Under the pieces are notes generated by a model. It worked only from the letters and a program-made list of their open reading frames with translations. It did no database searches and had not been told where the DNA came from. A stretch of DNA of 64,000 nt from Epilithonimonas zeae. GTDB taxonomy: Bacteria; Bacteroidota; Bacteroidia; Flavobacteriales; Weeksellaceae. The DNA is taken from the NCBI RefSeq assembly GCF_900141765.1, contig NZ_FSRK01000001.1, forward strand, positions 930,001-994,000, read 5' to 3'. Positions 1-39,494 of the stretch are shown here, piece by piece; position 1 is the stretch's first letter; every line of letters starts with the position of its first letter. The translations under genes and the position numbers were made by a program.

Positions 1-423
1 AACAGACCTGTGGAATATAAAGCACAGATCGAATTATTCCACAGACTCTTTTTTACGCTGGCTTCTGATGATTCTTATATCAAAGAGAATATCCAAAAGT
101 CATTGTATCTCATTGATGACAGTGGGAAAAAGGAGTACACCAACCTAAGAGAAAAGGGATTTTATAATCAGATTGTTGCTTCCAGTTCAATGGTCACTAT
201 CCACACAGATTCCATTAGCCTGGATATGGAAAATAAGAAATTTCAATTTTTTGGAAAACAGATGATAACAAGAAAATCTTCTGTCATTACCCGAAAATTA
301 TTTACGGAAGGATTTTTTGATGACATCATTAGAAGCCCTAACAATCCTCACGGTGTACTTCTTAAAAACTGGCGAATCATTGATAACGAAGAATTGTCTA
401 ACCAAAATAAAAACTCTTACTAA
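1..423 (+). CDS. traK: Conjugative transposon protein TraK, 3' part only
   Basis: The reading frame is open from the first base of the window, and the residues before the first possible GTG (position 10) continue the family pattern, so the gene begins outside. About 140 C-terminal residues remain of a family that is usually near 200. TraK is a component of the Bacteroidetes type IV secretion-like mating apparatus and is anchored in the inner membrane through its N-terminus, which is missing here. It ends one base before the next gene, as expected for an operon of tra genes in the order K, L, M, N. The identification rests on the family-like stretch around the MFH/LFH-LFF segment and on gene order. 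Confidence 0.75.
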   Translation, partial: NRPVEYKAQIELFHRLFFTLASDDSYIKENIQKSLYLIDDSGKKEYTNLREKGFYNQIVASSSMVTIHTDSISLDMENKKFQFFGKQMITRKSSVITRKLFTEGFFDDIIRSPNNPHGVLLKNWRIIDNEELSNQNKNSY

Positions 424-424
424 G

Positions 425-778
425 ATGAATGCTTTTGTTAAAAAAAACGGACAGAAATGGTTAGGCTGGGCAGTGAGAAATCCTAAGAAGTTTTTTATGT
501 ATTCGATGGCTTTCTTATCCGTTTCCTTCATCATATCCATTGTACAAGGTGTATTTTTTCCTTCAGATATGACATTCAAAATAAAGCCCCCTGTTATTTA
601 TTCCAAGAGTTCAGTCATTCAAAATACTTTACCAAATAATGAAAAGGAAATGGAGAAAATAGTAGCTGAGCTCCAATCCCTGAAAGTAAAAAGAGATAGG
701 CAAGACTTAAAAAAAGAAGACAGCTTGAGAATAGAATATCTGTTTAACCAATACCAACACTTAAAAAATGGACATTAA
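425..778 (+). CDS. Small membrane protein of the transfer operon (TraL position)
   Basis: 117 residues. One clear membrane segment lies at about residues 22-42, followed by a charged, helix-prone C-terminal part. The frame is open further upstream to 317, but that would overlap traK by over 100 bases; the ATG at 425 sits one base after the traK stop and is preferred. The 3' end overlaps the start of traM by 11 bases, so translation is probably coupled. Position between traK and traM is where TraL-type proteins sit in Bacteroidetes conjugative elements. The sequence alone does not prove homology to TraL, and no enzymatic motif is visible. Confidence 0.6.
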   Translation: MNAFVKKNGQKWLGWAVRNPKKFFMYSMAFLSVSFIISIVQGVFFPSDMTFKIKPPVIYSKSSVIQNTLPNNEKEMEKIVAELQSLKVKRDRQDLKKEDSLRIEYLFNQYQHLKNGH

Positions 779-1979
779 GAAAATCAACTTTAAAGAAAAA
801 AAATACGTTCTGCCTCTTCTTGCTCTGCCGTTCATTTTACTGTTTGCGTATGTAGGAGCTCAGTTTACAAAGGATGATAAGCCTATGGAAAAACCAAAGG
901 AGCTTTCCACATTACTGGGTGAATCTCAGGATTCCATTATGACTAAAAATGATGCTTATGATGCATTCTTCAAAAAAGATGATAATAGAACAATGCTTGG
1001 AGGATTAGACAGGGAACAGGACAGTTTTCTAAGCTATGACGACCAGTTGTCATTAGCTCAAAAAAGAAGAATCGATTCAATAAAAGCTGTCAATTCAAGG
1101 CAGAGTCAATATCAGGCAAACGGAAATCCATCATCCTATTATAACCCTAAACAAGGTAAAGAAGATCAGGACTATAAAAGATCGACTGAGATTATTAAAA
1201 TGTTGAATGACAAATCCAACGGAAAAGCAGAAGATAATATTCAGACTGAAAAGCCTAAAACTAAAGAGCAAAATACACAGCAAGATCCTGTAAAATATCT
1301 GAAACAGCAAATGCTGGTGATGGATTCTTTAGAGAAAGCAAGAGATCCCGAGTATCAAAGCAAGTTGGCGGCAGAACAGAAGCTAAAAGCCAATAAAGAA
1401 AAAATGAACGAGTTCCTTAATTCTACTTTCAATGTCAGTAAGTCAGGTATCAATCATGACTTCAATGCCATTTATAAAGACAAGGAAAATAGTTTTATCA
1501 AGGCTGTTATCGATGAAAACAACAAAGGGTTTTTGGGAAGCAGAATAAGATTTCGATTGCTGGAGGACATCTATGTTGGAAACAGGAATATCAGTAAAGG
1601 TTCCATTCTGTATGGTCAAATCTCAGGATTTACAATGCAGAGAGTTGATTTGAAAATCATTTCTGTATTTGCTAAAGGAGAGATTTTTCCCATCAACCTA
1701 TCTATTTACGATGTTGATGGTATGAAAGGCTTGTATGTGCCGCAAAGCGGTTTCAGAGATATGATTCGAGAAATGGGAAGTAATTCAGTTCAGGGAACCC
1801 AAATGGATATGGGTGGAGAAGGATTTTTTACAACGATTGGTTCCAAACTATTTACATCCACTTCCAAGTCGATCGCAAACCTCATTAAAATCAATAAAGC
1901 CAAGTTGAAGTACAATTCTTATGTATTTCTGATTGACGAAAAACAATTGAAAGATTCAAAAAACCAAACAAAACCTTAA
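768..1979 (+). CDS. traM: Conjugative transposon protein TraM
   Basis: 403 residues. A membrane anchor lies near residues 13-31, then a long charged and glutamine-rich linker, then a C-terminal domain (about 230-400) typical of Bacteroidetes TraM, with a region reading as a beta-rich module followed by a KLFTSTSKS segment. TraM is a VirB10-like scaffold protein of the mating channel, spanning inner membrane and periplasm. It overlaps the preceding small gene by 11 bases and is followed by traN after 5 bases, so it is cotranscribed. The length is close to the family norm and the gene looks intact. Confidence 0.85.
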   Translation: MDIKKINFKEKKYVLPLLALPFILLFAYVGAQFTKDDKPMEKPKELSTLLGESQDSIMTKNDAYDAFFKKDDNRTMLGGLDREQDSFLSYDDQLSLAQKRRIDSIKAVNSRQSQYQANGNPSSYYNPKQGKEDQDYKRSTEIIKMLNDKSNGKAEDNIQTEKPKTKEQNTQQDPVKYLKQQMLVMDSLEKARDPEYQSKLAAEQKLKANKEKMNEFLNSTFNVSKSGINHDFNAIYKDKENSFIKAVIDENNKGFLGSRIRFRLLEDIYVGNRNISKGSILYGQISGFTMQRVDLKIISVFAKGEIFPINLSIYDVDGMKGLYVPQSGFRDMIREMGSNSVQGTQMDMGGEGFFTTIGSKLFTSTSKSIANLIKINKAKLKYNSYVFLIDEKQLKDSKNQTKP

Positions 1980-1984
1980 AAGCA

Positions 1985-2848
1985 ATGAAATCATTTTTAT
2001 ATACACTTTTACTATTTACAGCGACTCTCAAAGCTCAAACAGCAACCAAAGAAAAAATTATTTCTGATCTGCCAGAAATAGAAATAGCAGAAGGGGTCAA
2101 CCTGCATATTATTTCTCCTGAACCTATCCAATACGTCGATTTATCAACTGAAAAACTAACAGGGGATTTACCAACGACCAATATTGCAAGAATCAAAATT
2201 ACAGATAGTCAAACATCTGCAGAAGATAAAAAGAAAAAGACCTCCATCTTTTTTAATGGAGATCAAGCTGGAATTATTACCGTTGTGGGGCAATCTTTTA
2301 TTGCACAATATAAAGCGGTTTACAGACATTCTGAAAATTTGAATACAATTACCAATATTCACATTCAGCCTGAAGCGATGCAGCCTATTGAGTTCGATAA
2401 AATGGTCTTCTCTAACCTTGAACTTAGAAGATTTGCAATGGGAATCATTCAGAAGAAATCTGAAAATAACCCAATCAGAGAAGAGAAAAATCTTAAACTC
2501 AGCTTCCAGCTCAATAATGTCTATGTCATCAGCGATTACATTTTCCTTGATATGACTTTTAAAAATAATTCTAATCTGAGCTATGATATTGAGGCATTAA
2601 AATTTTCTATAGAAGATAAAAAGATTCATAAGGCTACCAATAACCAGAGCATTGAGATGACGCCACTTTTTCAACTAAATCCTCAAAAGCATTTCAAGAA
2701 GAATTTTAGAAACATTTATGTCTTCAAAAAATTTACTTACCCGAATTCCAAAGTAATGATGATAAGATTAATTGAGGAACAGCTTTCGGGCAGAACGATT
2801 GAAATGAAAGTGAACTATTCTGACATTCTAAAAGCTGATACTTTCTAG
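1985..2848 (+). CDS. traN: Conjugative transposon protein TraN (DUF4138 family)
   Basis: 287 residues with a cleavable signal peptide (about residues 1-17, ending in KAQ). The mature part is beta-rich, as expected of the VirB9-like TraN family that forms part of the periplasmic/outer-membrane core of the channel. Five bases separate it from traM. A 13-base perfect palindrome (2849-2861) directly follows its last bases; with almost no loop it is a poor terminator, and the coupling-protein gene starts 49 bases on. Identification rests on gene order, the signal peptide and family resemblance. Confidence 0.8.
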   Translation: MKSFLYTLLLFTATLKAQTATKEKIISDLPEIEIAEGVNLHIISPEPIQYVDLSTEKLTGDLPTTNIARIKITDSQTSAEDKKKKTSIFFNGDQAGIITVVGQSFIAQYKAVYRHSENLNTITNIHIQPEAMQPIEFDKMVFSNLELRRFAMGIIQKKSENNPIREEKNLKLSFQLNNVYVISDYIFLDMTFKNNSNLSYDIEALKFSIEDKKIHKATNNQSIEMTPLFQLNPQKHFKKNFRNIYVFKKFTYPNSKVMMIRLIEEQLSGRTIEMKVNYSDILKADTF

Positions 2849-2897
2849 GCGGAAGTTCCGCTTTCCATTAATTAAAAAGAAACTAAAATAAACTGCT

Positions 2898-4886
2898 ATG
2901 CAAGAGCAACAACATCAAATCAAAATCTATGGATTCCTGCAAAAGGTGGTCTATGCTGTCGTTGCATTGGATTGTGCTTCGCTGTTTTATCTGAATGCTG
3001 ATGTCCCTGTAGTTTCCAACTTATTGAAGAACTTCTCAAAGATGAGCTTCATCTATCCTCCCATCAATGCAAAATTTGCCACGGTGGTTTTGATTGGATT
3101 GGTTGCTGTTGGAACAAAAGCTAAGAAGAAAAAAGATCTCAATATCTATACGGAGATAGGGATTCCTATGGTGTTAGGATTATTGATGATTTTCTCATCC
3201 TTGATCTGGCAGAATGAAGCTGGAAATAGAGAACTCCCGCATATCGTTCCAGGGCTCAATCTGTATCAAATAATTTACGCAGTTCTTTCTTTTTTAGGAG
3301 CAGTTATTCTTCAGATGGGAGCAGACAGCATTTCGAAAATGATGCAGCAGAAAATGGGAAAAGACCGATGGAATGTTGAAGAAGAGTCTTTTGATCAAAA
3401 CAAAGAACTTGTAAACACGGATACTTCAATTAATATCCCGTATGTTTTCAGATATAATAACAAAACCTACAAAGGCTATATTAATATAGATCCTTTTAGA
3501 GGAACTATCGTCATCGGAGTACCTGGTTCTGGAAAATCGTTTGGGGTTATTAATCCTTCCATTCGACAGATGATTGCCAAAGGGTTTTGTCTTTGTATTT
3601 ACGATTTCAAGTTTCCTGATCTGGCGCAGATTGCTTATTATCAGTTCCTGCTGAAAAAAAGTAAAGAGCCAGATTATAACTACAGTTTTCATATTATCAA
3701 TCTGAATGAAGTAGAAAAATCAAGAAGAGTCAATCCATTTCACAAGAAATATATAAAAACCTTGGCTGAAGCTCAGGAAATGGCAGAATCAATGGTGTCT
3801 TCATTACAAAAAGGTGGAGCAAGTTCCGGAGGTGGCTCAGAAGCATTCTTTACACAGTCGGCTATTAACTTTCTATCTTCCTGTATCTACTTTTTTGCTA
3901 CGCTGGAAAATGGTAAATATTCAGACCTGCCTCATATTCTGTCATTTATGAACCGCAGTTATAAAGAGATCTTCGATACACTTTTCACGAATGAGGAGAT
4001 TTTGTCTTTACTTTCACCATTCAAAACGGCTTATGACAACAAGGCTTTTGATCAGTTGGAAGGGCAGATCGGGACTTTGAAAATCTTTCTTTCTCGATTG
4101 GCAACTAAAGAGAGTTTTTGGGTCTTCTCAGGAGATGAAGTTGAGCTTAAAATAACAGATAAGCAAAATCCTTCGATTCTGATTTTAGCATCTGATCCGA
4201 GTACGCAGGATATTAATTCAGCTCTGTATTCATCAATATTAAATAGGACTTTACGCTTAATCAATTCCAAACATAATCTGCCGGGTGGAGTAGTAGGTGA
4301 TGAATTTCCAACAATCTACATTCATAAAATTGATAATGTGATCGCAACAGCAAGAAGTAACAAGATTGCTGTATTACTGGGACTTCAGGAAATTCCACAG
4401 CTTAGACAGTTTTACAAAAAGGAAGTTGCCGATACCATTTCTGCCATTGTAGGAAATGTTCTTTCCGGTTCTGTACGAGATAAAAATACCTTGGACTGGC
4501 TTGAAAAATTATTCGGAAAAATTAAACAGAAGTCTTACTCCCAATCCATTTCACAACAAGGAACATCAACCAGCATTAATGAAAAAATGGATTTTATGAT
4601 TCCTGCAGGAAAAATCGCTGCCCTTAAAACCGGTGAAATGGTTGGGATGATTGCACAAGGTGAAGAGAACAGTACAGAGGAATATAAAACATCTGCAATA
4701 AAAGGAAAGATCAATCTTGATATGAATGCCATTAAGGAAGAGGAAAAAAACTATGTAGAGATGCCTAACTATTATTCATTTATAGACAAAAAAGGTGTCA
4801 ATCGTAAAGAAGAAGTCTTGATGACAAACTTCAGAAAAATCAATCGAGAAGTGGAGCTTATCGTCAATGAAAATATTAAAGAATAA
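2898..4886 (+). CDS. Type IV coupling protein, VirD4/TraG family (MobC-like)
   Basis: 662 residues. The N-terminal quarter holds several membrane segments (about 14-34, 60-72, 88-105, 122-141). A Walker A motif, GVPGSGKS, is at 207-214 (Lys213), and a Walker B-type VVGDEF lies in the second half. These ATPases bring the relaxase-bound DNA strand to the secretion channel. In many Bacteroidetes elements the equivalent gene (mobC) sits beside the relaxase gene mobB; here it follows traN, and no relaxase is in the window. It looks complete and is followed by the M23 peptidase gene after 4 bases. Confidence 0.87.
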   Translation: MQEQQHQIKIYGFLQKVVYAVVALDCASLFYLNADVPVVSNLLKNFSKMSFIYPPINAKFATVVLIGLVAVGTKAKKKKDLNIYTEIGIPMVLGLLMIFSSLIWQNEAGNRELPHIVPGLNLYQIIYAVLSFLGAVILQMGADSISKMMQQKMGKDRWNVEEESFDQNKELVNTDTSINIPYVFRYNNKTYKGYINIDPFRGTIVIGVPGSGKSFGVINPSIRQMIAKGFCLCIYDFKFPDLAQIAYYQFLLKKSKEPDYNYSFHIINLNEVEKSRRVNPFHKKYIKTLAEAQEMAESMVSSLQKGGASSGGGSEAFFTQSAINFLSSCIYFFATLENGKYSDLPHILSFMNRSYKEIFDTLFTNEEILSLLSPFKTAYDNKAFDQLEGQIGTLKIFLSRLATKESFWVFSGDEVELKITDKQNPSILILASDPSTQDINSALYSSILNRTLRLINSKHNLPGGVVGDEFPTIYIHKIDNVIATARSNKIAVLLGLQEIPQLRQFYKKEVADTISAIVGNVLSGSVRDKNTLDWLEKLFGKIKQKSYSQSISQQGTSTSINEKMDFMIPAGKIAALKTGEMVGMIAQGEENSTEEYKTSAIKGKINLDMNAIKEEEKNYVEMPNYYSFIDKKGVNRKEEVLMTNFRKINREVELIVNENIKE

Positions 4887-4890
4887 TAAA

Positions 4891-5763
4891 ATGAAATTGA
4901 TAAGAAAATATTTGATGACAGGTTTTTTTCTGGGTTACCATTCATTGGTTTTCGCTCAGTTCAATACGCTTACTAGACATGAAAATAAAGTTAATGAATC
5001 CTTTAATGAAAAGCAAAATTTTCAGAAAGAGCAAAGGGGCAGAAAAGAGATAGAGAAAAAAAACATCATTAATAAATTTTTTAAATCTCCCACTAAAGCG
5101 GACTTAAAAAAGGAAATTGATTCTTTGAAAACAATGATGCTACGTTACAGTGTATCAACATCGGAGGAAAAAGAAGAAAATTATAAAAACAATGATTTTT
5201 CTCCTGTGAAAATGGGAGATGATAAATTAAGTAATCAAGGAAACTCAAGTATAGAAAAGTCGAGTAAAAAATTTGATTTCATTAATGAAGAAGAACTTAT
5301 CTCAAAAATAAGTATGCCACTGAAGAGAAAGATTGTGGTTACATCTCCTTTCGGAAGGCGAACGCATCCAATTTTCGGATCAGCCAAAATGCATACGGGG
5401 ACTGATTTTGAAGCCAACTATGAAAATGTATATGCCGTTTTAGACGGAACTGTAATTGCGTCGGGTTGGGATTCTGGAGGTGGAGGAGGGAATTATATAA
5501 AAATCAAGCATTCTGATTCATTTGTAACCTCCTATCTCCATCTTTCCGAAATCTATTATAGAGCCGGAGAAGCTGTGAAGGCAGGATTCATTATTGCAAA
5601 AAGTGGGAATACCGGAAATTCTACTGGGGCACACCTTCATTTTTCAGTTGCAGAAAACGGAAAGTATATTAATCCCATTCGGTTTTTGAATGACCTCATT
5701 AAAGCGAACAACTTAATTGCCAACTATTATGAAATAGGAAAAAACTCATATCTCCAACATTAA
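4891..5763 (+). CDS. Secreted M23-family peptidoglycan endopeptidase of the transfer operon
   Basis: 290 residues from ATG 4891. This start is preferred over ATG 4867 because it gives a normal signal peptide (ending FAQ, about residue 23) and avoids overlap with the coupling-protein gene. A charged coiled-coil-like linker covers about 28-140. The M23 (LytM) domain follows at about 145-270, with zinc ligands His168 and Asp172 (HTGTD) and the HLH motif at 248-250, all present. Such enzymes cut peptide cross-links in peptidoglycan. Inside a transfer operon its likely role is to open the wall for assembly of the mating channel, replacing the lytic transglycosylases used elsewhere. Confidence 0.85.
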   Translation: MKLIRKYLMTGFFLGYHSLVFAQFNTLTRHENKVNESFNEKQNFQKEQRGRKEIEKKNIINKFFKSPTKADLKKEIDSLKTMMLRYSVSTSEEKEENYKNNDFSPVKMGDDKLSNQGNSSIEKSSKKFDFINEEELISKISMPLKRKIVVTSPFGRRTHPIFGSAKMHTGTDFEANYENVYAVLDGTVIASGWDSGGGGGNYIKIKHSDSFVTSYLHLSEIYYRAGEAVKAGFIIAKSGNTGNSTGAHLHFSVAENGKYINPIRFLNDLIKANNLIANYYEIGKNSYLQH

Positions 5764-5776
5764 ACTTCTAAACATT

Positions 5777-6475
5777 ATGCAAAATCACAACTTACCTACT
5801 GACGAACTTAAAAACTTTGGAATCATCAATGAAGACCTTACATTTTCCAAAAAGCTATGCGAAGATGATATCCATAAATTTCTGCAAGGATATACTATCG
5901 TTGCCGACAATGATAAGAATAGAGCCACTTTTCAGCTCACTGATAATAATACTAAACTAAAGGTCATTTTTCTTGAACGTGACACAAGTCTTTCAAAAAT
6001 TATTGAAGACAGCAGGGAAAAAGTTCAGTACACCAATGTAAAAGAACTTTCAAACGAAAATCCTTCTTTTGAAAAAAAGGCTTTTATCTATGACAGTGAG
6101 ACAGGAAAAACCGTTGAGTTTGATTTTATCAAAAATGCAACAGAGCTAACTGCCATCATCGCCGATAAAAAAGACCCTGAAGAATTGAACCGCTATAAAA
6201 ATGAACTTCTAAAACTAAAAGTTTATTTACAAGATAAAATAGATCAGTATCCTGAAATATCTAAGGAAATCAAGAATGATATGAATATCGTTTCCAGAGA
6301 AATTAGTTCTGTCAACACCATTTCTAAAAACTATCAACAAAGCTCCAAAAACCGTAATTCAGATATTCAGCTGAATGTGAATGACAGAGATATGTATGAA
6401 GACGCTAACAGAACCAGGGAGGAACAGGAAGAACAACCTGAGGAACAAGAGAAAAGAAGAGGCTTTAGAAGATAA
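5777..6475 (+). CDS. Unassigned protein of the conjugative element
   Basis: 232 residues, no signal peptide or membrane segment. The N-terminal part (about 1-110) looks globular with mixed helix and strand; the middle (about 130-185) is a charged, probably coiled helix; the C-terminal tail is very rich in Glu, Gln and Arg and probably disordered. It starts 13 bases after the M23 peptidase gene and is followed by another cytoplasmic unknown. I do not recognise the family with certainty; small cytoplasmic proteins in this position are common in Bacteroidetes conjugative elements. A DNA-processing or regulatory accessory role is only a guess. Confidence 0.6.
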   Translation: MQNHNLPTDELKNFGIINEDLTFSKKLCEDDIHKFLQGYTIVADNDKNRATFQLTDNNTKLKVIFLERDTSLSKIIEDSREKVQYTNVKELSNENPSFEKKAFIYDSETGKTVEFDFIKNATELTAIIADKKDPEELNRYKNELLKLKVYLQDKIDQYPEISKEIKNDMNIVSREISSVNTISKNYQQSSKNRNSDIQLNVNDRDMYEDANRTREEQEEQPEEQEKRRGFRR

Positions 6476-6513
6476 TCTTAAATCATAAAATTAACAATCA
6501 AACCCCACACATT

Positions 6514-7269
6514 ATGGAAACAAAACAAGACTTCAATCAAGTACAGTATCTTAAAGACCAAATGAAATATCTTGGTTTTGGAGAAGATGAAAAACTTCAC
6601 AAAGATCTAGAAAAAGGTATTAATTCAAAGAAACAAGAGTTTGAAATTAAAACTACTTCTGACAAAACTTTACCCGAAAATAAGGTTGATTTTTTATTAA
6701 AGTTCAATAAAAGCGAAAATGGAGGAGTTTTTCTTAATTCTTATAATGCAAAATTGACCAATGAAAAAAGCGAGGAACTCTCTCATAATTTTCCAGTGAG
6801 TAGGGATAGTTCATTTACCGCAAAAGAAGCAATTAATCTATTGGAGGGACGTAGCGTGAAAATAGAATTTTCTAATCCAAAGAAGAATAATGAAGTAGAA
6901 CCTGCATTTGTTCAATTTAATTTCAATGAAACGAAAACCGACAAAGGAAATTATCTGTTTCAGAATTTCTACAAAAACTATGGCGTTGATACGGCAAAGA
7001 TTGTTGAAAAATCTAATCTCATATTTGATAAACCTGAATGGAAAGTAAGTGCCATAAAATCTTTAGAAAAAGGAAATGTACTAAAAGTGAAATTCAAAGA
7101 AAATGATCAAATAGTAGAAGGAAAGGCAGTGCTTGATCCACAGAACAGAAACCTTAAACTTTATGACAACGAAATGAATAGGCTTAATACTAACAAACCT
7201 TTAGAAGGCTTGGAGCAAGATAACAAGCACGATAAAGCCAATGTTAGAGAACAAAGCATCAAAAGATAG
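6514..7269 (+). CDS. Unassigned protein of the conjugative element, last gene of the transfer operon
   Basis: 251 residues, soluble, lysine- and asparagine-rich. Two repeated-looking halves can be seen: each contains a stretch reading as a small beta module ending in a KxKF or KIEF strand (about 40-140 and 150-225). The C-terminal 25 residues are polar and probably disordered. It follows the previous gene by 38 bases and ends just before a strong terminator (7299-7329), so it closes the transfer operon. Relatives occur as conserved hypothetical proteins in flavobacterial conjugative elements by my recollection, but no function is known to me. Confidence 0.6.
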   Translation: METKQDFNQVQYLKDQMKYLGFGEDEKLHKDLEKGINSKKQEFEIKTTSDKTLPENKVDFLLKFNKSENGGVFLNSYNAKLTNEKSEELSHNFPVSRDSSFTAKEAINLLEGRSVKIEFSNPKKNNEVEPAFVQFNFNETKTDKGNYLFQNFYKNYGVDTAKIVEKSNLIFDKPEWKVSAIKSLEKGNVLKVKFKENDQIVEGKAVLDPQNRNLKLYDNEMNRLNTNKPLEGLEQDNKHDKANVREQSIKR

Positions 7270-7298
7270 AAATTTTACATACTTATATTTTCATCAGC

Positions 7299-7329
7299 AG
7301 CGGTAAGTCTATAAGATTTGCCGCTTTTT
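7299..7329 (+). terminator. Rho-independent terminator of the transfer operon
   Basis: A 12-base-pair stem (AGCGGTAAGTCT with AGATTTGCCGCT, two G-U pairs) with a 3-base loop is followed at once by five T. It lies 30 bases after the last transfer-operon gene. Confidence 0.85.
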
Positions 7330-7345
7330 CATAAAGCCAATTGAA

Positions 7346-8026
7346 ATGAAAACAAAATTAATACTTCTACCTACTGCATTCCTTCTTGTAATCGTTTCTT
7401 GCCACAAGGAAATTATTTCTGAAAAAGGAGGAATTGACCTTATTTCCAATGTTTATTTCGATGCTTCTAAAGGTTTAGATCAAATGAAGAGCTTTCACTT
7501 GTCAAAAATAAATTATTCTCAAAATCACATGATAGAATTAGTTCCCGATAACTCATTTCCAGAATTAATTAAACAAATGTATTATATAAAAGATTCATTG
7601 TATTTTAAATTAGATCCATCAGAGAATAATATAATTTTTCCAGAAGTTTCTCAAAAGCAAAAACCATTATCAATTTGGAACAAAAAAGAAGGTGCTGTAT
7701 TTTCAAAGGATTGGATTCGTAATTACAGAAACAGAAGAAATCTATCCGATACAGTATTATTCAATAAAAAATATAAACGCTTTGAGATTAATTCTCCTTG
7801 GAACTATACTCGTTTTTACGTGTATCCTACCGATACTATATTACCTTATTCTCTTTACAAGCACGTTGAAAATGATTATCACGGTAGATTGGAGCGTATA
7901 GATTCTTATAATAAGAAAAGCGACATTTTTGTAACCCTGCAATTAATACCAAGAAAAAACTGGGATGATAAAGCAAAAGAACTGTTTGAGTTTAACCATT
8001 TTGTAAAAAATAGAAAAAGCAATTAA
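7346..8026 (+). CDS. Small lipoprotein of unknown function
   Basis: 226 residues. The N-terminus is a lipoprotein signal: Lys residues, a hydrophobic core and a VSC lipobox with Cys at residue 19, so the protein is probably membrane-anchored. The rest has many Tyr, Asn and Lys residues and no motif I recognise. It stands alone between the terminator of the transfer operon and the opposed sugar-polymer genes, and lies inside the proposed element. It may be a cargo or entry-exclusion-type gene, but position is the only hint. Confidence 0.6.
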   Translation: MKTKLILLPTAFLLVIVSCHKEIISEKGGIDLISNVYFDASKGLDQMKSFHLSKINYSQNHMIELVPDNSFPELIKQMYYIKDSLYFKLDPSENNIIFPEVSQKQKPLSIWNKKEGAVFSKDWIRNYRNRRNLSDTVLFNKKYKRFEINSPWNYTRFYVYPTDTILPYSLYKHVENDYHGRLERIDSYNKKSDIFVTLQLIPRKNWDDKAKELFEFNHFVKNRKSN

Positions 8027-8042
8027 AAAATGGATAGAGAAT

Positions 8043-8074
8043 GAAAAAGAGCTGTCTAAAATCTTAGGCAGCTC
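8043..8074 (-). terminator. Terminator at the end of the minus-strand glycan operon
   Basis: An 11-12 base-pair stem (GAGCTGTCTAA with the CTTAGGCAGCTC arm) is followed on the minus strand by a T run (complement of the A run at 8043-8048). It lies 26 bases beyond the stop of the T9SS-exported protein gene. The plus-strand gene ending at 8026 has no T run on its side. Confidence 0.75.
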
Positions 8075-8099
8075 CTATATAATAAACAATTTTACTATT

Positions 8100-8939: not shown

Positions 8940-9039
8940 AGTGTATGAATTTTTATTGTTAATTGGTTCGAAATTACTTTTGTTGAGATATCTTGAGGAA
9001 TCAAAATGTCCTTTAATGGGGGTAGAAATGTTTGGATAA

Positions 9040-11238: not shown

Positions 11239-11329
11239 ATCGAAGATTATATTGTCTTAGCTAATTCTATTCTGAGAAAAGTTTTCAGTAAATTCCAGAA
11301 CGATATATTCAGACTGCTTTTAAAAAAAA

Positions 11330-12778: not shown

Positions 12779-12945
12779 AATTTACAGATTATAATATTAT
12801 TATTGATAAGAGAAAATTGAAAACATTATTTTAGTTGATTAGCTGATAGTCATAACTAAAAATGCGGTGGATAACATCATAAGATAGACACTCCAATATT
12901 TTTATTGGATAGAATTCTAGAGTGATGAAATTGGTTTGTAACTTA

Positions 12946-15222: not shown

Positions 15223-15282
15223 TTCTAATTTTTAATGGTAATAACTGTTATTGTTTAGAGAGTATTTTAATTTTCGTAAAAG

Positions 15283-17968: not shown

Positions 17969-17982
17969 TTAAAAAAAATAAA

Positions 17983-19167: not shown

Positions 19168-19193
19168 AATTGATTATAATCATTTTGGTAATT

Positions 19194-23321: not shown

Positions 23322-23521
23322 TTGAACTAAAACCTGACACAAATACGAATTTTCAACATCATTTTCTTTCTATTGAATTTGAAATAGATTTATAACGTAT
23401 TGTTTTTCATTGTGTTAAAATGATTCATACATTATGACCCCGCAAAAAGCATATTTAGACACCCTAATAGATATGATTATCAGACATATTTGTAAAAAAC
23501 AAAGCTATTAAACTAAACAAT

Positions 23522-26356: not shown

Positions 26357-26387
26357 AAAAAATATGAAAATTTTAAGTCATTATATC

Positions 26388-28001
26388 ATGAAAAAATTAC
26401 AGTGTTTAGTCATTTCTATCATATCTCTCGCAGCGACTTGCATATCTTGTGACAAATTCCTGGAAGAAGAAATCATAGATCAGGTTTCTGTAGATTATAT
26501 CTATACGACCCCCGAAGGCCTGGATGTAGGTGTCAATGCCTTATATAACAGGATGCGGCAGTATAATGCACCGTCTGGAGATAATAGTAATCTGCAAGCC
26601 AATGTGTTTTTTATGGCCGCTACCGATCTTGGCCTTCATAGAACTTGGTTTACGCCGTATGGAGCTACCACTCATACTCCACAAAATTTCCCTAAGGACA
26701 AATGGGTTAATGCCTATAAAATTATAGATAGAGCGTCTGCAATTATCAGTAGTGCAAGAACAGTCTCTATGGATAATAATGCTAAAAAGAAACTGGTTGC
26801 ACAGGCACGTGTCATTAGAGGTGAGCTTTATCTGGATCTGATAAGAATGTATGGTACTATCTTACTGGACACTGTGGCAACCAATGCACAAAATATAGAT
26901 GATGCAGTCACTTACAAAGCAGCTACAGAAGATGAGGTTTTCGGGGTCATCAATCAGGATTTGGATTATGCTGTTGCAAATTTGGATTGGCAGGTGCCCG
27001 CTGGCAGATACGGTCAGGGAGTTGCGAGGCATTTGCGTGGTAAAGCGGCAATGTGGCGCAAAGACTGGCAGAAAGCTGCAGAAGAATTTGATGCAATTAT
27101 TCTCAATCCGACCCACGATTTGGTAGATATTAATCAGGTTTTCGGAGCTGATGTCAATCATAAAGAAGCCTTATTTGTTTATCAACGCAACCAAAGTCTC
27201 GGACAAGGCGATGATCTTGCTGGTGGTGGTGGATTTTGGCTTGGAAGTGTTTTTACCCAGAGGATTTATGAAAAAGCATCGGGAGCATCTGCCAGTGCAG
27301 GAAATGAGATGATTCTAGATGTTAACTATGGCGGACAATCTTTAGGTTGGTTTTATCCTAATAATTATTTGAAATCTCTTTATGATAAGACGAATGACAA
27401 AAGGTTTTCAACCTATTATTGGCCGGATAATTATACTGCTTATATTGTTAATAATCCCAGCCATCCACGCTTTGGACAGCCTATTACACAGCCGGAAGAT
27501 AATTACAGAAGATACCACTGGAGTTTGAAAAAATATGCAGACTTCCAAACAAAACTGGTTGGAACAGAAAACAGTTTTAAAAATTATATGTATTACCGGT
27601 ATGCAGAAACACTACTTCTGGCGTCGGAAGCTCATCATAATCTTGGAAATGATGCCCTGGCCTTATCGTACATTAATAAAGTTCGCAGAAGAGGTTATGG
27701 TCTGAATCCTAACGCAGTATCATCATTTGATTTTACAAGCTGGACGCAGGAAACTTATCTGGAAGAATCAGCAAGAGAATTGGCCTTTGAAAATGAACGT
27801 TGGTTTCTGCTGAAGCGATTAGGCATTTTAGGAGAGAGAATTACTCTGCATTACAGAAACGGTGACAATACAAGCTCGGAGGCTTCAGATGCCATCAATA
27901 GTCTTACCCCATGGAGAGCGCAGTATATTAACTGTCCTGTCCCTCAAAGTCAGATTGACATTATGGGTGCTGCAGCTTCGCAATTTAATATCGGATATTA
28001 A
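26388..28001 (+). CDS. susD: SusD-type glycan-binding lipoprotein (RagB/SusD family)
   Basis: 537 residues from ATG 26388, chosen because it gives a compact lipoprotein signal ending in ISC before DKFLEEE, the usual beginning of mature SusD. ATG 26364 in frame is also possible. The first half is helical with TPR-like repeats (about 60-240); the C-terminal half has the family pattern YRYAETLLLASEAHHNLG and a closing NERWFLLKRLG segment. SusD proteins sit as a lid on SusC at the cell surface and bind the polymer. The gene follows susC by about 30 bases and precedes the GH2 gene by 42, so the four genes form one operon. Confidence 0.94.
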   Translation: MKKLQCLVISIISLAATCISCDKFLEEEIIDQVSVDYIYTTPEGLDVGVNALYNRMRQYNAPSGDNSNLQANVFFMAATDLGLHRTWFTPYGATTHTPQNFPKDKWVNAYKIIDRASAIISSARTVSMDNNAKKKLVAQARVIRGELYLDLIRMYGTILLDTVATNAQNIDDAVTYKAATEDEVFGVINQDLDYAVANLDWQVPAGRYGQGVARHLRGKAAMWRKDWQKAAEEFDAIILNPTHDLVDINQVFGADVNHKEALFVYQRNQSLGQGDDLAGGGGFWLGSVFTQRIYEKASGASASAGNEMILDVNYGGQSLGWFYPNNYLKSLYDKTNDKRFSTYYWPDNYTAYIVNNPSHPRFGQPITQPEDNYRRYHWSLKKYADFQTKLVGTENSFKNYMYYRYAETLLLASEAHHNLGNDALALSYINKVRRRGYGLNPNAVSSFDFTSWTQETYLEESARELAFENERWFLLKRLGILGERITLHYRNGDNTSSEASDAINSLTPWRAQYINCPVPQSQIDIMGAAASQFNIGY

Positions 28002-28043
28002 GATTATAACTTAATATTTGAGTCAATCATTAATCAAAATTTT

Positions 28044-29876
28044 ATGTTAAAAAAAATTATCATCCCATTGCTGTTAATAGTCTTTATCCTAAGTTCATTT
28101 TGTACATCGGTTATGGGACAAAAAACGATTCAGCATGCTTTTGCCAGAGATCATATTAATCTAAATGGCTCTTGGAAATATATCATAGATCCGTACCAAA
28201 TGGGTTATCTAGATTACAGACAAAAACCATTCGATCAAAGTAAATCAGGAAAAGGAGGCTTTTATGACAACATTACTTCCCCGGACAAAAAAACAAGAGT
28301 CGAATACAATTTTGATTTTGAACCTTCTTTGCAGGTTCCTGGTGATTGGAACTCTCAGGATCAAAAACTACTATTTTATGAAGGTACTGTTTGGTACAAA
28401 AGAGATTTTGTCGCAGATCCACAAGCCAATAAGAATTACTTTTTGTATTTCGCAGCGGTAAATTACGAGAGTCACGTTTATTTGAATGGCGAAAAGGTAG
28501 GTACACATAAAGGTGGATTCACTCCATTTCAATTTGATGTCACTTCGAAATTAAAAAAGGGCAACAACTATGTTGTGGTTATGGTCGATAATGTACGCAA
28601 AAAAGATGAGGTGCCAACTATTAATACAGATTGGTGGAACTATGGAGGTATTACACGTGATGTTTTATTGGTAACCACGCCAAAGTCTTTTATCGAAGAT
28701 TATAAAATGCAATTGGCCAAAAATGATCCTACTAAATTAGAGGGATTTGTGAAGTTGAATGGCAATACAAACAAAGAGAAACTGGTCATAGAAATTCCTG
28801 AACTTAATATAAAATCGACACTTGAAACTGATGCCAATGGCTATGCGAAAATTATAATTCCCACAAAAAAGATTGACTATTGGTCTCCGGAAAATCCTAA
28901 GCTGTACGATGTCAAAATCAGTTCAAAGTCAGATAAAATTAATGATAAAATTGGTTTTAGAACAATTAAAACTGTTGGAAAAGATATTTTGCTGAATGAC
29001 CGATCCCTATTTCTGAAAGGTATTTCTGTACATGACGAAAATCCTTTGGTAGGCGGACGTTTGCGATCCGAAGGCGATATGAGAATGATCCTTGGCTGGG
29101 CAAAGCAATTAGGCTGCAATTATATTCGCCTGGCACATTACACCCATAATGAAACGATGCTGCGTCTTGCTGACGAAATTGGATTATTGGTTTGGGCAGA
29201 GGTTCCTGTGTATTGGACGATCTCGTGGAGCAATCCCGATACGTATAAAAACGCAGAAGATCAATTGACTGTAGCAATCGAAAGAGATAAAAACAGAGCT
29301 TCCGTAATTATCTGGTCAGTAGGGAATGAGACGCCTGTCAGTAAGGAGCGTAATGTTTTTATGGGTAAATTAATTGACAAAGTTCGTAGTTTAGACGATA
29401 GTAGACTTGTTGCAGCCGCCTTGGAAATCGAACGCAATGGCTATGACGTAACCGTTGAAGATCCTTTGGGTGATAAGCTTGATCTCGCCAGTTTTAATGA
29501 GTATGGAGGCTGGTACTGGTCTGAGCCAAAAGAATTACCAAAATATAAATGGGAAATAAAATTCAATAAACCAGTGGTAATCTCCGAGTTTGGTGCCGAT
29601 GCATTAGCAGGATATCACGCAGATGAAGATACAGTATGGAGTGAGGAGCATCAGCAATTGTTTTATGAAAAACAACTGGAAATGCTTGACAAAATAGATG
29701 GGCTGCGAGGAATGACACCTTGGATTCTAGTCGATTTCAAATCGCCTAGACGTCAAAATCCTGTTTATCAGAATTTCTGGAACAGAAAAGGTCTTATTTC
29801 GGAAACTGGGGTCAAAAAGAAGGCTTTTTACACGCTTCAGAATTATTATCAACGGAAATCATTAAATAATAAATAA
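28044..29876 (+). CDS. GH2 family enzyme, probable beta-glucuronidase
   Basis: 610 residues with a signal peptide (about 1-26). GH2 layout: sugar-binding domain (about 30-210, ending in NTDWWNYGGITRDV), immunoglobulin-like domain (about 212-310), and the barrel domain with acid/base Glu429 (SVGNE) and nucleophile Glu515 (ISEFGAD). Near the C-terminus Asn580-Arg-Lys582 matches the NxK motif that contacts the carboxylate of glucuronic acid in known beta-glucuronidases, and length and architecture also fit that group rather than the large beta-galactosidases. The nearby uxuB-uxuA genes for glucuronate breakdown support the call. It follows susD in the same operon and probably acts in the periplasm. 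Confidence 0.87.
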   Translation: MLKKIIIPLLLIVFILSSFCTSVMGQKTIQHAFARDHINLNGSWKYIIDPYQMGYLDYRQKPFDQSKSGKGGFYDNITSPDKKTRVEYNFDFEPSLQVPGDWNSQDQKLLFYEGTVWYKRDFVADPQANKNYFLYFAAVNYESHVYLNGEKVGTHKGGFTPFQFDVTSKLKKGNNYVVVMVDNVRKKDEVPTINTDWWNYGGITRDVLLVTTPKSFIEDYKMQLAKNDPTKLEGFVKLNGNTNKEKLVIEIPELNIKSTLETDANGYAKIIIPTKKIDYWSPENPKLYDVKISSKSDKINDKIGFRTIKTVGKDILLNDRSLFLKGISVHDENPLVGGRLRSEGDMRMILGWAKQLGCNYIRLAHYTHNETMLRLADEIGLLVWAEVPVYWTISWSNPDTYKNAEDQLTVAIERDKNRASVIIWSVGNETPVSKERNVFMGKLIDKVRSLDDSRLVAAALEIERNGYDVTVEDPLGDKLDLASFNEYGGWYWSEPKELPKYKWEIKFNKPVVISEFGADALAGYHADEDTVWSEEHQQLFYEKQLEMLDKIDGLRGMTPWILVDFKSPRRQNPVYQNFWNRKGLISETGVKKKAFYTLQNYYQRKSLNNK

Positions 29877-29890
29877 AAACCTCATTGTAT

Positions 29891-31021
29891 ATGAAAAATA
29901 TATTTAGAGTATTAAGATTAAGCATGCTTTTCTTTCTAGTCTCTTGCACGCACGAGGATAAAGTAGAGTTTGTCAATGGGGAAACAGGACAAGTGGAAAA
30001 TCCTGATCCTTTTTCCGCAAAAAAAATAATTGCTGATATGGGACCTGGTTTTAATCTTGGTAACACCTTTGATAATGGCATTCATCCGACCTCCTTGGCA
30101 GCAATCAAACCCGTTATTGATTTGTATAAAAATGCGGGAATGAAACATGTTAGAATTCCAACTACCTGGATGGATAGGTTTTCATCTACTCTTGCAGACA
30201 ATAATGGTAATATTAATGTCAATCATCCAAGATTTATAGAGCTTAAGGCAGTTATAGATTACGCACTATCAAAAGATTTATACGTAATACTAAATACCCA
30301 TCACGAGTCTTGGTTGAAGGATCATTACGATGGATCTGAGCAATATGATACTAAGTTCCGAACATTGTGGACAGGTATTGCTACCTATTTTAAAGATTAT
30401 CCTCAAAAATTGATTTTTGAAGTTTTAAATGAGCCAGAAGGTAATTTGGGAGAATTAGACGGCAATGGTCCTTTTCCCGATCCTACAGATGCATTGGCTT
30501 TACAATACACCAGAAAAGTAAACCAAGTTGGCTATGACGCCATACGGGCAACACATGGTAACAATGAAAAACGATTAATTATGGTAGGTACCAATGGACA
30601 AGGAAATGCATTGTATATAAGTAATGTCTATCCAAGCAAATCGTCATTGCCAGGTGGAGGAAATGATGATTATCTATCTATACAGGTTCACACTTATTCT
30701 CCTTGGGCATTCTGCGGAGAGACTGGAAGTAATGCTGCTTTTCCCGGAACAGCCAGTTTTGAGACGGGCATTCAAAATGTGAAAGCACATTCGATAAAAT
30801 TGAATGTTCCTGTTCATTATGGCGAATTCGGAGTAGGAAGAAGTAGTAATACCGCGGAAAGAAATACCGATCTCGTTAGGAATTATTACCGCACAATGGC
30901 AAGAACAACCTTAGCTCAATCAATGTCATACAGCGTTTGGGATGATAGAGGTTGGTTTGCTCTCATAAACCCAACAGGTACATCTTTCGTAAATAATATA
31001 GTACCATACATGCTACAATAA
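29891..31021 (+). CDS. GH5 family endo-beta-glucanase-like lipoprotein
   Basis: 376 residues from ATG 29891 (a TTG two codons earlier is less likely). Lipobox LVSC with Cys19, then a short linker and a GH5 barrel: GFNLGNTF (53-60), HVRIPTTW (86-93), the NTHHE segment, acid/base Glu181 in LNEPE, and nucleophile Glu312 in HYGEFG. The sequence fits the cellulase/xyloglucanase-like part of GH5. As a lipoprotein in a SusCD operon it is likely displayed outside the cell and makes the first cuts in the backbone. It starts 14 bases after the GH2 gene and ends 31 bases before a strong terminator. Confidence 0.9.
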   Translation: MKNIFRVLRLSMLFFLVSCTHEDKVEFVNGETGQVENPDPFSAKKIIADMGPGFNLGNTFDNGIHPTSLAAIKPVIDLYKNAGMKHVRIPTTWMDRFSSTLADNNGNINVNHPRFIELKAVIDYALSKDLYVILNTHHESWLKDHYDGSEQYDTKFRTLWTGIATYFKDYPQKLIFEVLNEPEGNLGELDGNGPFPDPTDALALQYTRKVNQVGYDAIRATHGNNEKRLIMVGTNGQGNALYISNVYPSKSSLPGGGNDDYLSIQVHTYSPWAFCGETGSNAAFPGTASFETGIQNVKAHSIKLNVPVHYGEFGVGRSSNTAERNTDLVRNYYRTMARTTLAQSMSYSVWDDRGWFALINPTGTSFVNNIVPYMLQ

Positions 31022-31052
31022 AATCAAATCACAATATTATTTTCTTTAAGTT

Positions 31053-31094
31053 GCTGTTTCATAATTTTATCTAAAACTATGAAACAGCTTTTTT
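31053..31094 (+). terminator. Terminator of the susC-susD-GH2-GH5 operon
   Basis: A perfect 11-base-pair stem (GCTGTTTCATA at 31053-31063, TATGAAACAGC at 31078-31088) is followed by six T. It lies 31 bases after the GH5 stop codon. Confidence 0.88.
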
Positions 31095-31284
31095 AATTAC
31101 TGGCTGATAACTCTGAAAATCATTTAATAATGCTAGCAATTCCAATTAGAGAAAATGAAAGTAGGTGGGTTATACTTAATTGTCAAAAATATTTTTGGAA
31201 AATATATATACATTATGAATTCTGGTTAATTTATCGAAATCCTCTAAAAAAGTGTTCAATAATTTTACCGCTAAGATCAAAAAC

Positions 31285-31324
31285 AAAAAATGGCTCCAAT
31301 TTATTATAAATTGAGTCATTTTTT
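31285..31324. terminator. Bidirectional hairpin, probable terminator of the integrase gene
   Basis: A long stem with one mismatch and one bulge pairs AAAAAATGGCTCCAATTTA with TAAATTGAGTCATTTTTT around a 3-base loop, giving U runs on both strands. It is the first terminator met by transcripts of the minus-strand integrase. The rest of 31095-31483 is AT-rich and shows no gene or other recognisable element. Confidence 0.65.
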
Positions 31325-31483
31325 GTTTTGATTCCAGGATTGTCCGGATTAATCTTTTTAATGTTTAATTAAAATAGGTGTGAAACATTTGATATGTGTT
31401 TTGTGTGAAGTGTGATATTAATTACGATATAAATGATTGTTTAGAATTGTCTTATGTAAAATATATCAATGTTTAATTTTATA

Positions 31484-32707
31484 TTATTTTTCTGATTTTG
31501 TAAGAATGTTTCTCAAATTTGACATATCATCACTAATTCGTTTATCAAGTATTTTTGCGTAATGTTGAGTAGTTTTTATATTGGTGTGTCCAAGCATCTT
31601 GCTTACACTCTCAATTGGAACACCATTTGACAAGGTTATTGTTGTAGCAAATGTATGTCTAGCAATATGGAAAGTCAATTCTTTATTAATTCCACAAACA
31701 TTAGCAATTTCTTTTAGATAAGAATTCATCTTTTGGTTACTTAAAACAGGAAAAAGTACATCTGTATTAATACACTCTGGATGATCTTTGTATTTTATAA
31801 TAAGTTCTTGTGCTAATGGTAATAATGGGACTCTAGTTGAGGTGTCCGTCTTCTGACGTTTTTTAAATATCCATTCATTACCATCTATACCAGTATTTAT
31901 GTGAGATTTTGATAACTTCTTGACATCTATATATGCTAATCCCGTGTAGCAGCTAAATAGAAAAATATCTCTAACATGATTTAATCTTTCGGAAGCAAAA
32001 TCTTTTTCCAAAATAGATTGTATCTCTTCTTTGTTTAGGTATGTTCTCTCTACAACTTTAATTTTTGCTTTGTATCCTACAAAGGGATCTTTGGCTAACC
32101 ATCCGTTCGCTATGCATAATCGTATTATTTTTTTGAAATTTTTAAGATATTTAACTGCAGTGTTGTTTGCGCATTTGCGAACGCTCCGAAGCCAAAAATC
32201 ATAATCCGCTATAAAAGCGTGGTTAATCTGCGTGATGTCTATATCGCAAATTTTATATTTCCATTTTAGAAATTCCTGAGTGTGTTTTAAAGATGTCTTA
32301 TAACGCTCTAAGGTTCCTGGTGCGAAATCCTGACCTATTAATGCTTCCACCTTATCATTGTGATCCTGAAATATGGGGATTAGCATCCGTTGTTCCAAAT
32401 CAGTACCCAAAAGCTTCGACTTCAAACCATCTGCCGTTACAAAGTTTTCCTCTTTCAACATTGAATAATGCGTATCATAAACTTGTTGTTCCAAAGTTTT
32501 GAGGTAAGTATTTAGTATTTTGGCATCTTGCCCATAACCAACAGCTTTATGAGATTTGCTGTCCCATTTCTTTGGGTCAATATACCTTTTGGCTGCAATT
32601 TCTGCGGCTTTGCCGTCGATTGTTATACGCAAATAAATTGGAGCAGTTCCGTTTGTGCGGATTTTATTCTTTTTGATAAAGAATAGAAGATTAAATGTCT
32701 TGTTCAT
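31484..32707 (-). CDS. Tyrosine recombinase (integrase) of the conjugative element
   Basis: 407 residues: N-terminal arm-binding and core-binding domains typical of Bacteroidetes integrases (about 1-210), then the catalytic domain with Lys286, His347-x-x-Arg350, His374 and nucleophile Tyr383 (HYAKI). The place of the first catalytic Arg is taken by Ala258 (TGLAYID), a change seen in part of the Bacteroidetes family related to the CTnDOT integrase. It would cut and rejoin the element ends at the tRNA-Ser 3' end. A weak promoter (TTG, 21 bases, TAACTTTT) lies just upstream on the minus strand, and short repeats at 32811-32858 may be its binding sites. Confidence 0.92.
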   Translation of the reverse strand: MNKTFNLLFFIKKNKIRTNGTAPIYLRITIDGKAAEIAAKRYIDPKKWDSKSHKAVGYGQDAKILNTYLKTLEQQVYDTHYSMLKEENFVTADGLKSKLLGTDLEQRMLIPIFQDHNDKVEALIGQDFAPGTLERYKTSLKHTQEFLKWKYKICDIDITQINHAFIADYDFWLRSVRKCANNTAVKYLKNFKKIIRLCIANGWLAKDPFVGYKAKIKVVERTYLNKEEIQSILEKDFASERLNHVRDIFLFSCYTGLAYIDVKKLSKSHINTGIDGNEWIFKKRQKTDTSTRVPLLPLAQELIIKYKDHPECINTDVLFPVLSNQKMNSYLKEIANVCGINKELTFHIARHTFATTITLSNGVPIESVSKMLGHTNIKTTQHYAKILDKRISDDMSNLRNILTKSEK

Positions 32708-32810
32708 TGTGTGATAATTTTAATTGTTTAAAAAGTTACTTTTTATTACCACTTTTTTGCAAGATGTATGTTGTTTGAACATCCTATTCATAGGGTTTTT
32801 CATGTTTTTT

Positions 32811-32858
32811 AGTGACCTGTTTTTGGCGTTTTTTGAATAGGTCACTAAATAGGTCACT
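32811..32858. repeat. Short direct and inverted repeats upstream of the integrase
   Basis: AATAGGTCACT occurs twice in direct orientation (32836-32846 and 32848-32858, 12 bases apart), and AGTGACCT is present inverted at 32811-32818. Repeats of this spacing near an integrase gene and an attachment site are typical of arm-type recombinase or excision-factor sites, or of an operator for the integrase promoter. Function is inferred from position only. Confidence 0.5.
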
Positions 32859-32905
32859 TGAAATATGCCCTTTTTTGTATTATTTTGCTACATGAACAGA
32901 AACAA

Positions 32906-32939
32906 AAAACGCTGTAAACATTGATGTTTACAGCGTTTT
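32906..32939 (-). terminator. Perfect 16-base-pair hairpin after tRNA-Ser(UGA)
   Basis: AAAACGCTGTAAACAT (32906-32921) and its exact complement (32924-32939) enclose a 2-base gap; the plus-strand A run at 32904-32909 gives a U run on the minus strand. It lies 24 bases beyond the tRNA 3' end and would end tRNA transcription. If the element joined at the tRNA 3' end, this hairpin belongs to the element and replaces the original terminator. Confidence 0.7.
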
Positions 32940-32963
32940 AGCTTATTTTGGTTTCCCAACTGG

Positions 32964-33048
32964 CGGAGAGTGAGGGATTCGAACCCCCGGACCTGTTACA
33001 GTCAACAGTTTTCAAGACTGCCGCAATCGACCACTCTGCCAACTCTCC
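32964..33048 (-). tRNA. tRNA-Ser (anticodon UGA)
   Basis: 85 bases on the minus strand plus an encoded CCA (32961-32963). Acceptor arms GGAGAGT and ACTCTCC pair fully, the T loop reads GGTTCGAATCC, a long variable arm is present as expected for tRNA-Ser, and the anticodon loop reads CTTGAAAA with UGA. Its 3' end faces the integrase gene, so it is the likely attachment site of the element. The gene remains complete, as expected if the element restores the 3' end on integration. Confidence 0.95.
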
Positions 33049-39487: not shown

Positions 39488-39494
39488 TATATTT

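Follow-up and report, generated by a model that had tools for sequence, protein, structure and literature searches.

A polysaccharide utilization locus adjoining conjugative transfer genes and a tRNA-Ser integrase in Epilithonimonas zeae

Results

The analysed window is a 64,000-nucleotide stretch of the Epilithonimonas zeae genome (contig NZ_FSRK01000001.1, G000:C1:930001-994000; the assembly comprises 4.08 Mb in 4 contigs). Its first 33 kb carry conjugative transfer genes, a SusCD-type glycan locus, and a tyrosine integrase gene beside a tRNA-Ser(UGA) gene (Table 1). This genome (G000) was compared with 22 other genomes of the genus, and all counts out of 23 cover the complete set. Positions are those of the window unless they are marked as G000:C1 or as an L stretch; L003:12597-15668, for example, corresponds to G000:C1:922597-925668. 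An earlier reading, made from the sequence alone, had proposed a conjugative element that carries a whole polysaccharide utilization locus into tRNA-Ser. Each of the components it named was confirmed, namely the transfer genes, the SusCD locus with its regulator and enzymes, and an integrase facing an intact tRNA-Ser(UGA). The conjugative element itself looks rebuilt and partly decayed and does not look like an intact vehicle for the locus.

Table 1. Features of the transfer module, glycan block, and integration site, in window positions.
Feature	Position	Strand	Basis or remark
traK, 3' part (start left of window)	1..423	+	p1 TraK 87% identical over window -191..420
traM	768..1979	+	PF12508; TIGR03779 just under cut-off
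traN	1985..2848	+	DUF4138; TIGR03780 above cut-off
Coupling protein, Bacteroidetes MobC / TraG-D type	2898..4886	+	PF10412; NF041326 below cut-off
M23 peptidase of transfer module	4867..5763	+	PF01551; 50% to p1
Three tail ORFs of transfer module	5777..8026	+	similarity to other copies stops at 8006-8019
Junction; glycan block starts at the start site of the SNF2 helicase/Eco57I methylase gene of other copies	8027..8036	.	
23-kb block, ends common to G014 and G016	8036..31110	.	
Protein with Por secretion C-terminal tail	8100..8939	-	PF18962
GH3	9040..11238	-	PF00933/PF01915
Glycoside-hydrolase-like protein, 482 aa	11330..12778	-	no Pfam/NCBIfam match; PDB 5t3b 'Glycoside Hydrolase', 4bq2 beta-agarase
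GH3, BglX-like beta-glucosidase	12946..15222	-	NF011678 above cut-off
PKD + CBM6 protein, probable glycan binder	15283..16710	-	
D-mannonate oxidoreductase (SDR)	17099..17968	+	NF006132 above cut-off
Mannonate dehydratase UxuA	17983..19167	+	TIGR00695 above cut-off
Hybrid two-component regulator	19170..23321	+	Reg_prop, HisKA, Response_reg, HTH_18
SusC	23522..26356	+	TIGR04056
SusD	26328..28001	+	PF07980; listed start TTG, true start may be downstream
GH2	28044..29876	+	nearest solved structures 6d1n, 7vqm: beta-galactosidase/glucuronidase, beta-galacturonidase
GH5, endoglucanase-like	29885..31021	+	PF00150; 6q1i
Tyrosine integrase	31484..32707	-	Arm-DNA-bind_5 PF17293, SAM_5 PF13102, catalytic PF00589
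tRNA-Ser(UGA), intact	32961..33048	-	ARAGORN

The SusCD locus (8100-31021) consists of 12 intact genes, with the adjacent susC and susD genes that define a polysaccharide utilization locus and with GH2, two GH3, and GH5 genes and a regulator in the same cluster. The best matches of the 12 genes in genomes G022, G014, and G016 are free of stop codons, except that the SusD matches in G014 and G016 each contain one stop; these stops perhaps reflect a listed TTG start that lies too far upstream. Sugar-acid catabolism, also ascribed to the locus by the earlier reading, is predicted to be partial: D-mannonate oxidoreductase and mannonate dehydratase are encoded, and no uronate isomerase, KDG kinase, or KDG aldolase was identified among the 12 genes (the chromosome was not searched for uronate isomerase). 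Because the likenesses of the GH2, GH5, and GH3 enzymes coincide with these two sugar-acid enzymes, the likeliest substrate would be a glucuronic-acid-bearing, beta-glucan-like polymer. The polymer would induce the locus, SusCD would import the oligosaccharides, and the GH2, GH3, and GH5 enzymes would cleave them; fructuronate would be converted by the locus enzymes to mannonate and then to 2-keto-3-deoxygluconate.

Positions 1-8026 are filled with transfer genes, and the module extends approximately 11 kb further left to a relaxase. The genes left of the window (approximately G000:C1 918.8-930.4k) encode a MobC-like protein, a MobB-type relaxase (L003:9143-10600; PF03432 above cut-off, NF041325 below cut-off), ParA, DUF4134, DUF4133, TraG, TraJ, and TraK. 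Positions 1-33048, first taken as the element, are therefore not the whole of it: the relaxase and further tra genes sought to the left are present, and similarity to the backbone of the closest relative, G022, ends near G000:C1 907,873, approximately 22 kb left of the window. The type IV secretion ATPase, coupling protein, and channel genes expected of an integrative and conjugative element are all in the module. Curated cut-offs were passed by TraG and TraN and missed by TraM, TraJ, MobB, and MobC.

The closest plasmid match of the module is p1, a circular plasmid of Chryseobacterium sp. JJR-5R, for which 30 of the 38 annotated features in the retrieved stretch were compared with G000:C1 900-940k. 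Matches were found for 23 of the 30 p1 genes, with stop-free best matches; one of these (27% identity) lies outside the module and another spans only approximately 100 residues. Five of the seven unmatched genes are located upstream of the mobilisation genes, and the other two are small (96 and 117 aa) and inside the module. The 251-aa open reading frame (ORF) at 6514-7269 corresponds to the final third of a p1 protein of 866 aa, and the copy in G018 is collinear with it, without the extra stretch. Within the genus, TraG relatives of this type, full or near-full length and at least 69% identical, occur in 16 of the 23 genomes (in two pieces in G020), and none was found in G022 at E 1e-60. Eight loci from seven related genomes were aligned to the module, which is nearly equidistant from all of them (73.6-75.3%); seven reach the module end at 8006-8019, and the eighth stretch stops earlier. 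Judged against the Chryseobacterium plasmid and these eight loci, the module appears near-complete.

In having TraG, TraJ, TraK, TraM, TraN, a MobB-like relaxase, and a MobC-like coupling protein in a row, the module resembles the Bacteroidetes TraG-TraN / MobB-MobC elements (TIGR03779-03783). It differs from them in the four missed cut-offs, in the lack of a detected pair of attachment (att) sites, and in a J domain inserted into TraG. This TraG (1023 aa, VirB4-type ATPase; L003:12597-15668) contains a full J domain (DnaJ, residues 581-644) that retains the HPD motif and sits before the C-terminal P-loop part. Relatives aligning over the whole or nearly the whole protein are present in 16 of the 23 genomes and on p1, and a search of the available papers for VirB4, J domain, and TraG together found none. 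Left of the transfer module, L003:734-6791 holds defence-like genes encoding a metallophosphatase-phosphoribosyltransferase, a CAP12/Pycsar TIR-like protein that scores just under the Pfam cut-off, and a DUF4365-TPR protein.

Only a few bases separate the stop codon of the terminal transfer ORF from the glycan block. In four of five loci examined, the module end is directly followed on its 3' side by an ORF of 1711-1736 aa, which in G018 encodes an SNF2 helicase with an Eco57I-type methylase domain. The loci of G017 and G008 also have a helicase after the terminal ORF, giving six of the seven other loci that reach the module end, and p1 has a "helicase-related protein" at the corresponding place. 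In G011 the terminal ORF is followed by a 312-aa ORF with no helicase match. The helicase/methylase gene is absent from the G000 junction. A piece of such a helicase (residues 389-1681) occurs at G000:C1:1554383-1558288, where its neighbours are a transposase gene, HipA, and a serine recombinase; the piece is 82% identical to the G017 protein and 72-74% identical to those of five other genus loci matched. A single element split between the window and the 1.55-Mb region was not established, as this piece is closest to G017 and the module is nearly equidistant from all eight loci. The surrounding region (G000:C1:1550341-1562007, L183) is a second conjugative-element remnant in which the truncated helicase/methylase, HipA, serine recombinase, and transposase genes are accompanied by a SMODS and Sa_NUDIX pair (CBASS-like).

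G022 is 96% identical to G000 over the tRNA and right flank. The two genomes share window 7958-33443, including the locus, integrase, and tRNA, at 95.8%, and are rearranged around the site. The shared stretch opens in G022 with the last approximately 64-68 bp of the terminal transfer ORF, and the ORF end and junction are identical at 83 of 85 bases. Directly left of this leftover lies an rve/HTH_21 transposase gene, which we take to be IS3-type. Since the leftover of the terminal transfer gene has been kept, the join between module and locus appears older than the split between G000 and G022; on the simplest reading, the common ancestor already had the two together, and the module disappeared from G022 afterwards. 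The leftover would then be the main evidence that module and locus belong together and, equally, evidence of an unstable unit. The earlier reading had held that a related strain with the locus at the same place, lacking transfer genes or integrase, would count against it. This situation is partly realised in G022, which lacks the transfer genes but keeps the integrase, and the leftover points to secondary loss. In G022, a 2262-aa RHS/SpvB-type protein is encoded to the left of this transposase gene, which adjoins the glycan block (L035:5707-12495). On the right side, window 36141-42097 (a phosphoesterase, an Lhr-type helicase, an ATP-dependent DNA ligase, and a metallo-beta-lactamase-fold protein) looks exchanged, with 47-56% identity to G022 at fourfold sites as against 91% and 86% for the flanking AcDH and SDR genes.

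SusC of at least 96% identity was found in 4 of the 23 genomes, the next best match being at most 37% identical, and a SusC of 98% is encoded by Flavobacteriaceae bacterium PS02293. The block in G014 and G016 spans window 8036 to approximately 31110 with sharp ends and is 85.5-87.2% identical to G000; between those two genomes it is 93.7% identical and the shared part is approximately 240 bp longer on the left. No integrase of the G000 type and no tRNA was found beside the block in the surrounding stretches of G014 and G016. In G016 the block is approximately 240 bp away from genes for SSB, DUF932, and RadC, with a TraG gene of a second type at 18 kb; the G014 block lies among chromosomal-looking genes. 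Joined flanks of the G014 block were searched for as an empty site in 8 genomes and were never found together. The available sequence of PS02293 comprises 17.6 kb of the block, 89-90% identical to G000, and a right flank of 5.3 kb. The match again ends near 31,100, and the flank beyond contains no window match longer than 100 bases and no tRNA. A search of plasmids with the block at megablast sensitivity gave no match. More distant relatives are a collinear counterpart in Chryseobacterium caseinilyticum, with 71-74% DNA identity, and SusC homologues in Flavobacterium species at 60-74%. This distribution suggests that the glycan gene set has spread between species and in more than one setting.

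Identity at fourfold sites was calculated for the block and for two backbone samples only, comprising genes left of the site and genes right of tRNA-Ser. For the block, G000 is 62.3% identical to G014 and 61.2% to G016, with every gene at 56-66%. Both values exceed those of the left sample (47.0% for G014, 16 of 33 ORFs usable; 45.6% for G016, 17 of 33) and of five genes right of the tRNA (51.7% and 52.0%). DNA identities point the same way: apart from the block, matches of G000 with G014 or G016 near the site are 66-84% identical; between G014 and G016, the five largest matches there are 80.8-83.6% identical and two smaller ones are at 71 and 73%.

The integrase gene is 253 bp from the 3' end of tRNA-Ser(UGA). 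Its product has Arm, SAM-like, and catalytic domains and presumably resembles IntDOT-like tyrosine integrases, from which its location at a tRNA-Ser 3' end sets it apart. In place of the usual first catalytic arginine, the sequence seems to have another residue (TGLAYIDV). Close homologues (at least 82%) lie beside tRNA-Ser(UGA) in 11 of the 23 genomes, the copy in G010 being broken. Of the relatives compared on the left side, only G022 has the glycan locus adjacent to the integrase. G016 and G011 have a serine recombinase at tRNA-Arg in place of the tyrosine integrase. In nine genomes, leaving out G017 (no AcDH locus) and G010 (broken integrase), integrase similarity did not track that of AcDH (Mantel r 0.30, p 0.10); in the pair G018 and G001, for instance, the integrase is 96% identical and AcDH 83%. 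An integrase resident at this site is accordingly not favoured. In G018, a transfer module, a helicase, a decayed integrase, and then an intact integrase run in series to tRNA-Ser, so islands seem to accumulate at this tRNA. The full order in G018:C46 (L107/L127) is module, helicase, Y-family polymerase, decayed integrase, TPR protein, M16 peptidases, and intact integrase.

The direct repeat of the tRNA-Ser 3' end predicted to the left was not found. Across 153 kb of G000, exact repeats of the 3' region do not exceed 11 bp, and a 12-base core allowing up to 2 mismatches recovers only the tRNA itself and, at a distance of 130 kb, one site with 2 mismatches. In the whole genome, an 18-base pattern allowing up to 3 mismatches matches only tRNA-Ser(UGA) and tRNA-Ser(GCU). 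No convincing left att copy was thus detected within 120-153 kb left of the tRNA, a search that cores under approximately 11 bp would escape. Because flanking att repeats were not found, the G000 element is not classed as an intact integrative and conjugative element. When G000 and 21 relatives were scanned, a long exact copy (14 bp) of a genome's own tRNA-Ser 3' end was seen only in G008, 17.8 kb to the left; scan lengths were unequal, as the stretch left of the tRNA measured less than 1 kb in G006, G019, and G002, and the total scanned for G005 and G004 was 3-4 kb. The G008 repeat is suggestive of an att site for the integrase, but another 14-mer, without known significance, also occurs in G003. 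Several relatives have tRNA-Ser without a close integrase, but to the left of it they are not collinear with G000. As a marker of the empty site, G000:C1 905-908k was ruled out, since a 2.7-kb unit there, or parts of it, matches in 18 of the 23 genomes. This genus repeat (L004:15180-17870, G000:C1:905180-907870) encodes a 436-aa protein without a Pfam match and a sigma-70-like protein, and a part of approximately 210 bp is still more widespread.

Further to the right, the G+C content rises locally to 40-45% at window 54108-58041, where two proteins with collagen repeats (684 and 442 aa) are encoded.

Discussion

With moderate confidence, we propose that a glycan cassette that spreads horizontally either was captured by a conjugative element located at a tRNA-Ser hotspot or became fused to it, and that the product was later remodelled, perhaps to the point of being unable to excise precisely. 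In this scenario the cassette (8036-31110) would spread horizontally within Epilithonimonas and, before G000 and G022 split, would have been joined to a Weeksellaceae transfer module (approximately window -12876 to 8026) and a tyrosine integrase at tRNA-Ser(UGA), replacing the helicase/methylase gene plus anything after it. Both lineages would have inherited the composite; G022 would then have lost its transfer genes beside the IS3-type element, and G000 would have retained a near-complete module without a recognisable left attachment site. We infer that the block entered the site as cargo of the element and that the element no longer excises precisely.

Several observations weigh against this proposal. 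The Mantel result for the integrase is significant neither way and uses one reference gene. The left end of the element is undefined, and no movement was seen. Transfer of the block between G014 and G016 is weakly backed: at fourfold sites the block is 82.8% identical (12 of 13 ORFs), next to 50.0% for the left backbone sample (17 of 30) and 78.4% for the right one (10 of 17), and the two genomes are 94% identical over 13.6 kb of DNA right of the AcDH start. The block is located downstream of one backbone stretch in the same orientation in G000, G014, and G016, at 48, 54, and 184 kb, which could reflect an old shared position. In addition, a weakly similar patch just right of the block in G000 (window 31179-31264) also adjoins the block in G016 (74% over 90 bases), so the right flanks are not wholly unrelated. 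As a separate observation, 166 bases of the non-coding interval between block and integrase (window 31230-31389) recur at 79.5% downstream of the helicase region of the G004 element (L136:15219-15384).

Finally, the join could be a deletion between two neighbouring islands, with the locus never travelling with the module. In its fuller form, this account has two neighbours, an island holding the glycan locus and the tRNA-Ser integrase and a separate conjugative element, which were fused by deletion or inversion. Such an origin would explain why the junction cuts the element at the helicase start, with no recognisable att site, and why G016, G011, and the second G000 remnant (C1:1550341-1558288) have a serine recombinase and not a tyrosine integrase. 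The rearrangement of G000 and G022 around the spot and the decayed and intact integrases in series in G018 also agree with it. We nevertheless regard it as rather unlikely: the join is older than the G000/G022 split, no second island end is present between the terminal ORF and the block, and G018 also has a transfer module of the same family left of its tRNA-Ser integrase.

The near-complete transfer module, open integrase, intact tRNA, and intact locus are what would be expected of the self-transmissible element of approximately 55 kb envisaged by the sequence-only reading, in which the tRNA-Ser integrase moves the glycan locus as one unit. Such an intact element is unlikely given that neither the 153-kb core search nor the genome-wide 18-base pattern revealed a left att repeat. 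The helicase/methylase gene is also missing, though it may be dispensable because the G011 copy lacks the helicase as well. Parts of that proposal are supported: the relaxase and tra genes it called for are present, the integrase does not track AcDH, as expected of a mobile gene, and the join of module and locus predates the G000/G022 split. Movement in one step is unsupported because no left att was found, G022 lacks the transfer genes, the locus occupies the place of the helicase, and the G014 and G016 copies lie elsewhere without the integrase. That the locus is an old chromosomal resident of a variable zone with the mobile genes as bystanders is highly improbable, for the common side and orientation in three genomes and the flank patch in G016 are outweighed by the restriction of close SusC to 4 of 23 genomes and by the block identity to G014 and G016 above both backbone samples.

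Glycan loci on conjugative elements are a known kind, and the Epilithonimonas case is a new instance. In gut Bacteroides, porphyran, agarose, and carrageenan loci reside on integrative conjugative elements or plasmids (PMC8845570). As in those cases, G000 has a full SusCD locus beside conjugation genes; the differences are that the host is one of the Weeksellaceae and that the locus lies at an internal breakpoint of the element and has different surroundings in other species. In gut bacteria, 47 SusC/SusD loci have been reported on mobile elements (PMC6907783), and the exchange of such loci between Bacteroidota is stated to have been confirmed by experiment (PMC13188876). A search for integrative conjugative elements together with polysaccharide utilization loci, Flavobacteri, and tRNA found no paper, and a differently framed one led back to PMC13188876, in a literature from which subscription journals were mostly absent, so that absence is unproven. 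Papers that mention both Epilithonimonas and conjugative elements include one on tet(X).

Glycan loci determine the diet of Bacteroidota, and the literature found on their conjugative spread concerns gut bacteria. Here, one 12-gene locus can be traced in four genomes of one genus and, over the greater part of its length, in a fifth genome. Its join to conjugation genes and the later loss of those genes in the sister lineage are legible from the sequence. The order of tra genes, cargo, integrase, and tRNA does not necessarily denote one intact mobile unit. Only tentatively, the nearly constant ends of the block could mark a cassette that switches vehicles, joined to the tRNA-Ser element in the lineage of G000 and G022, near a second type of TraG in G016, and in a chromosomal-looking setting in G014. 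If so, glycan loci would move between conjugative backbones as exchangeable modules and not as fixed cargo.

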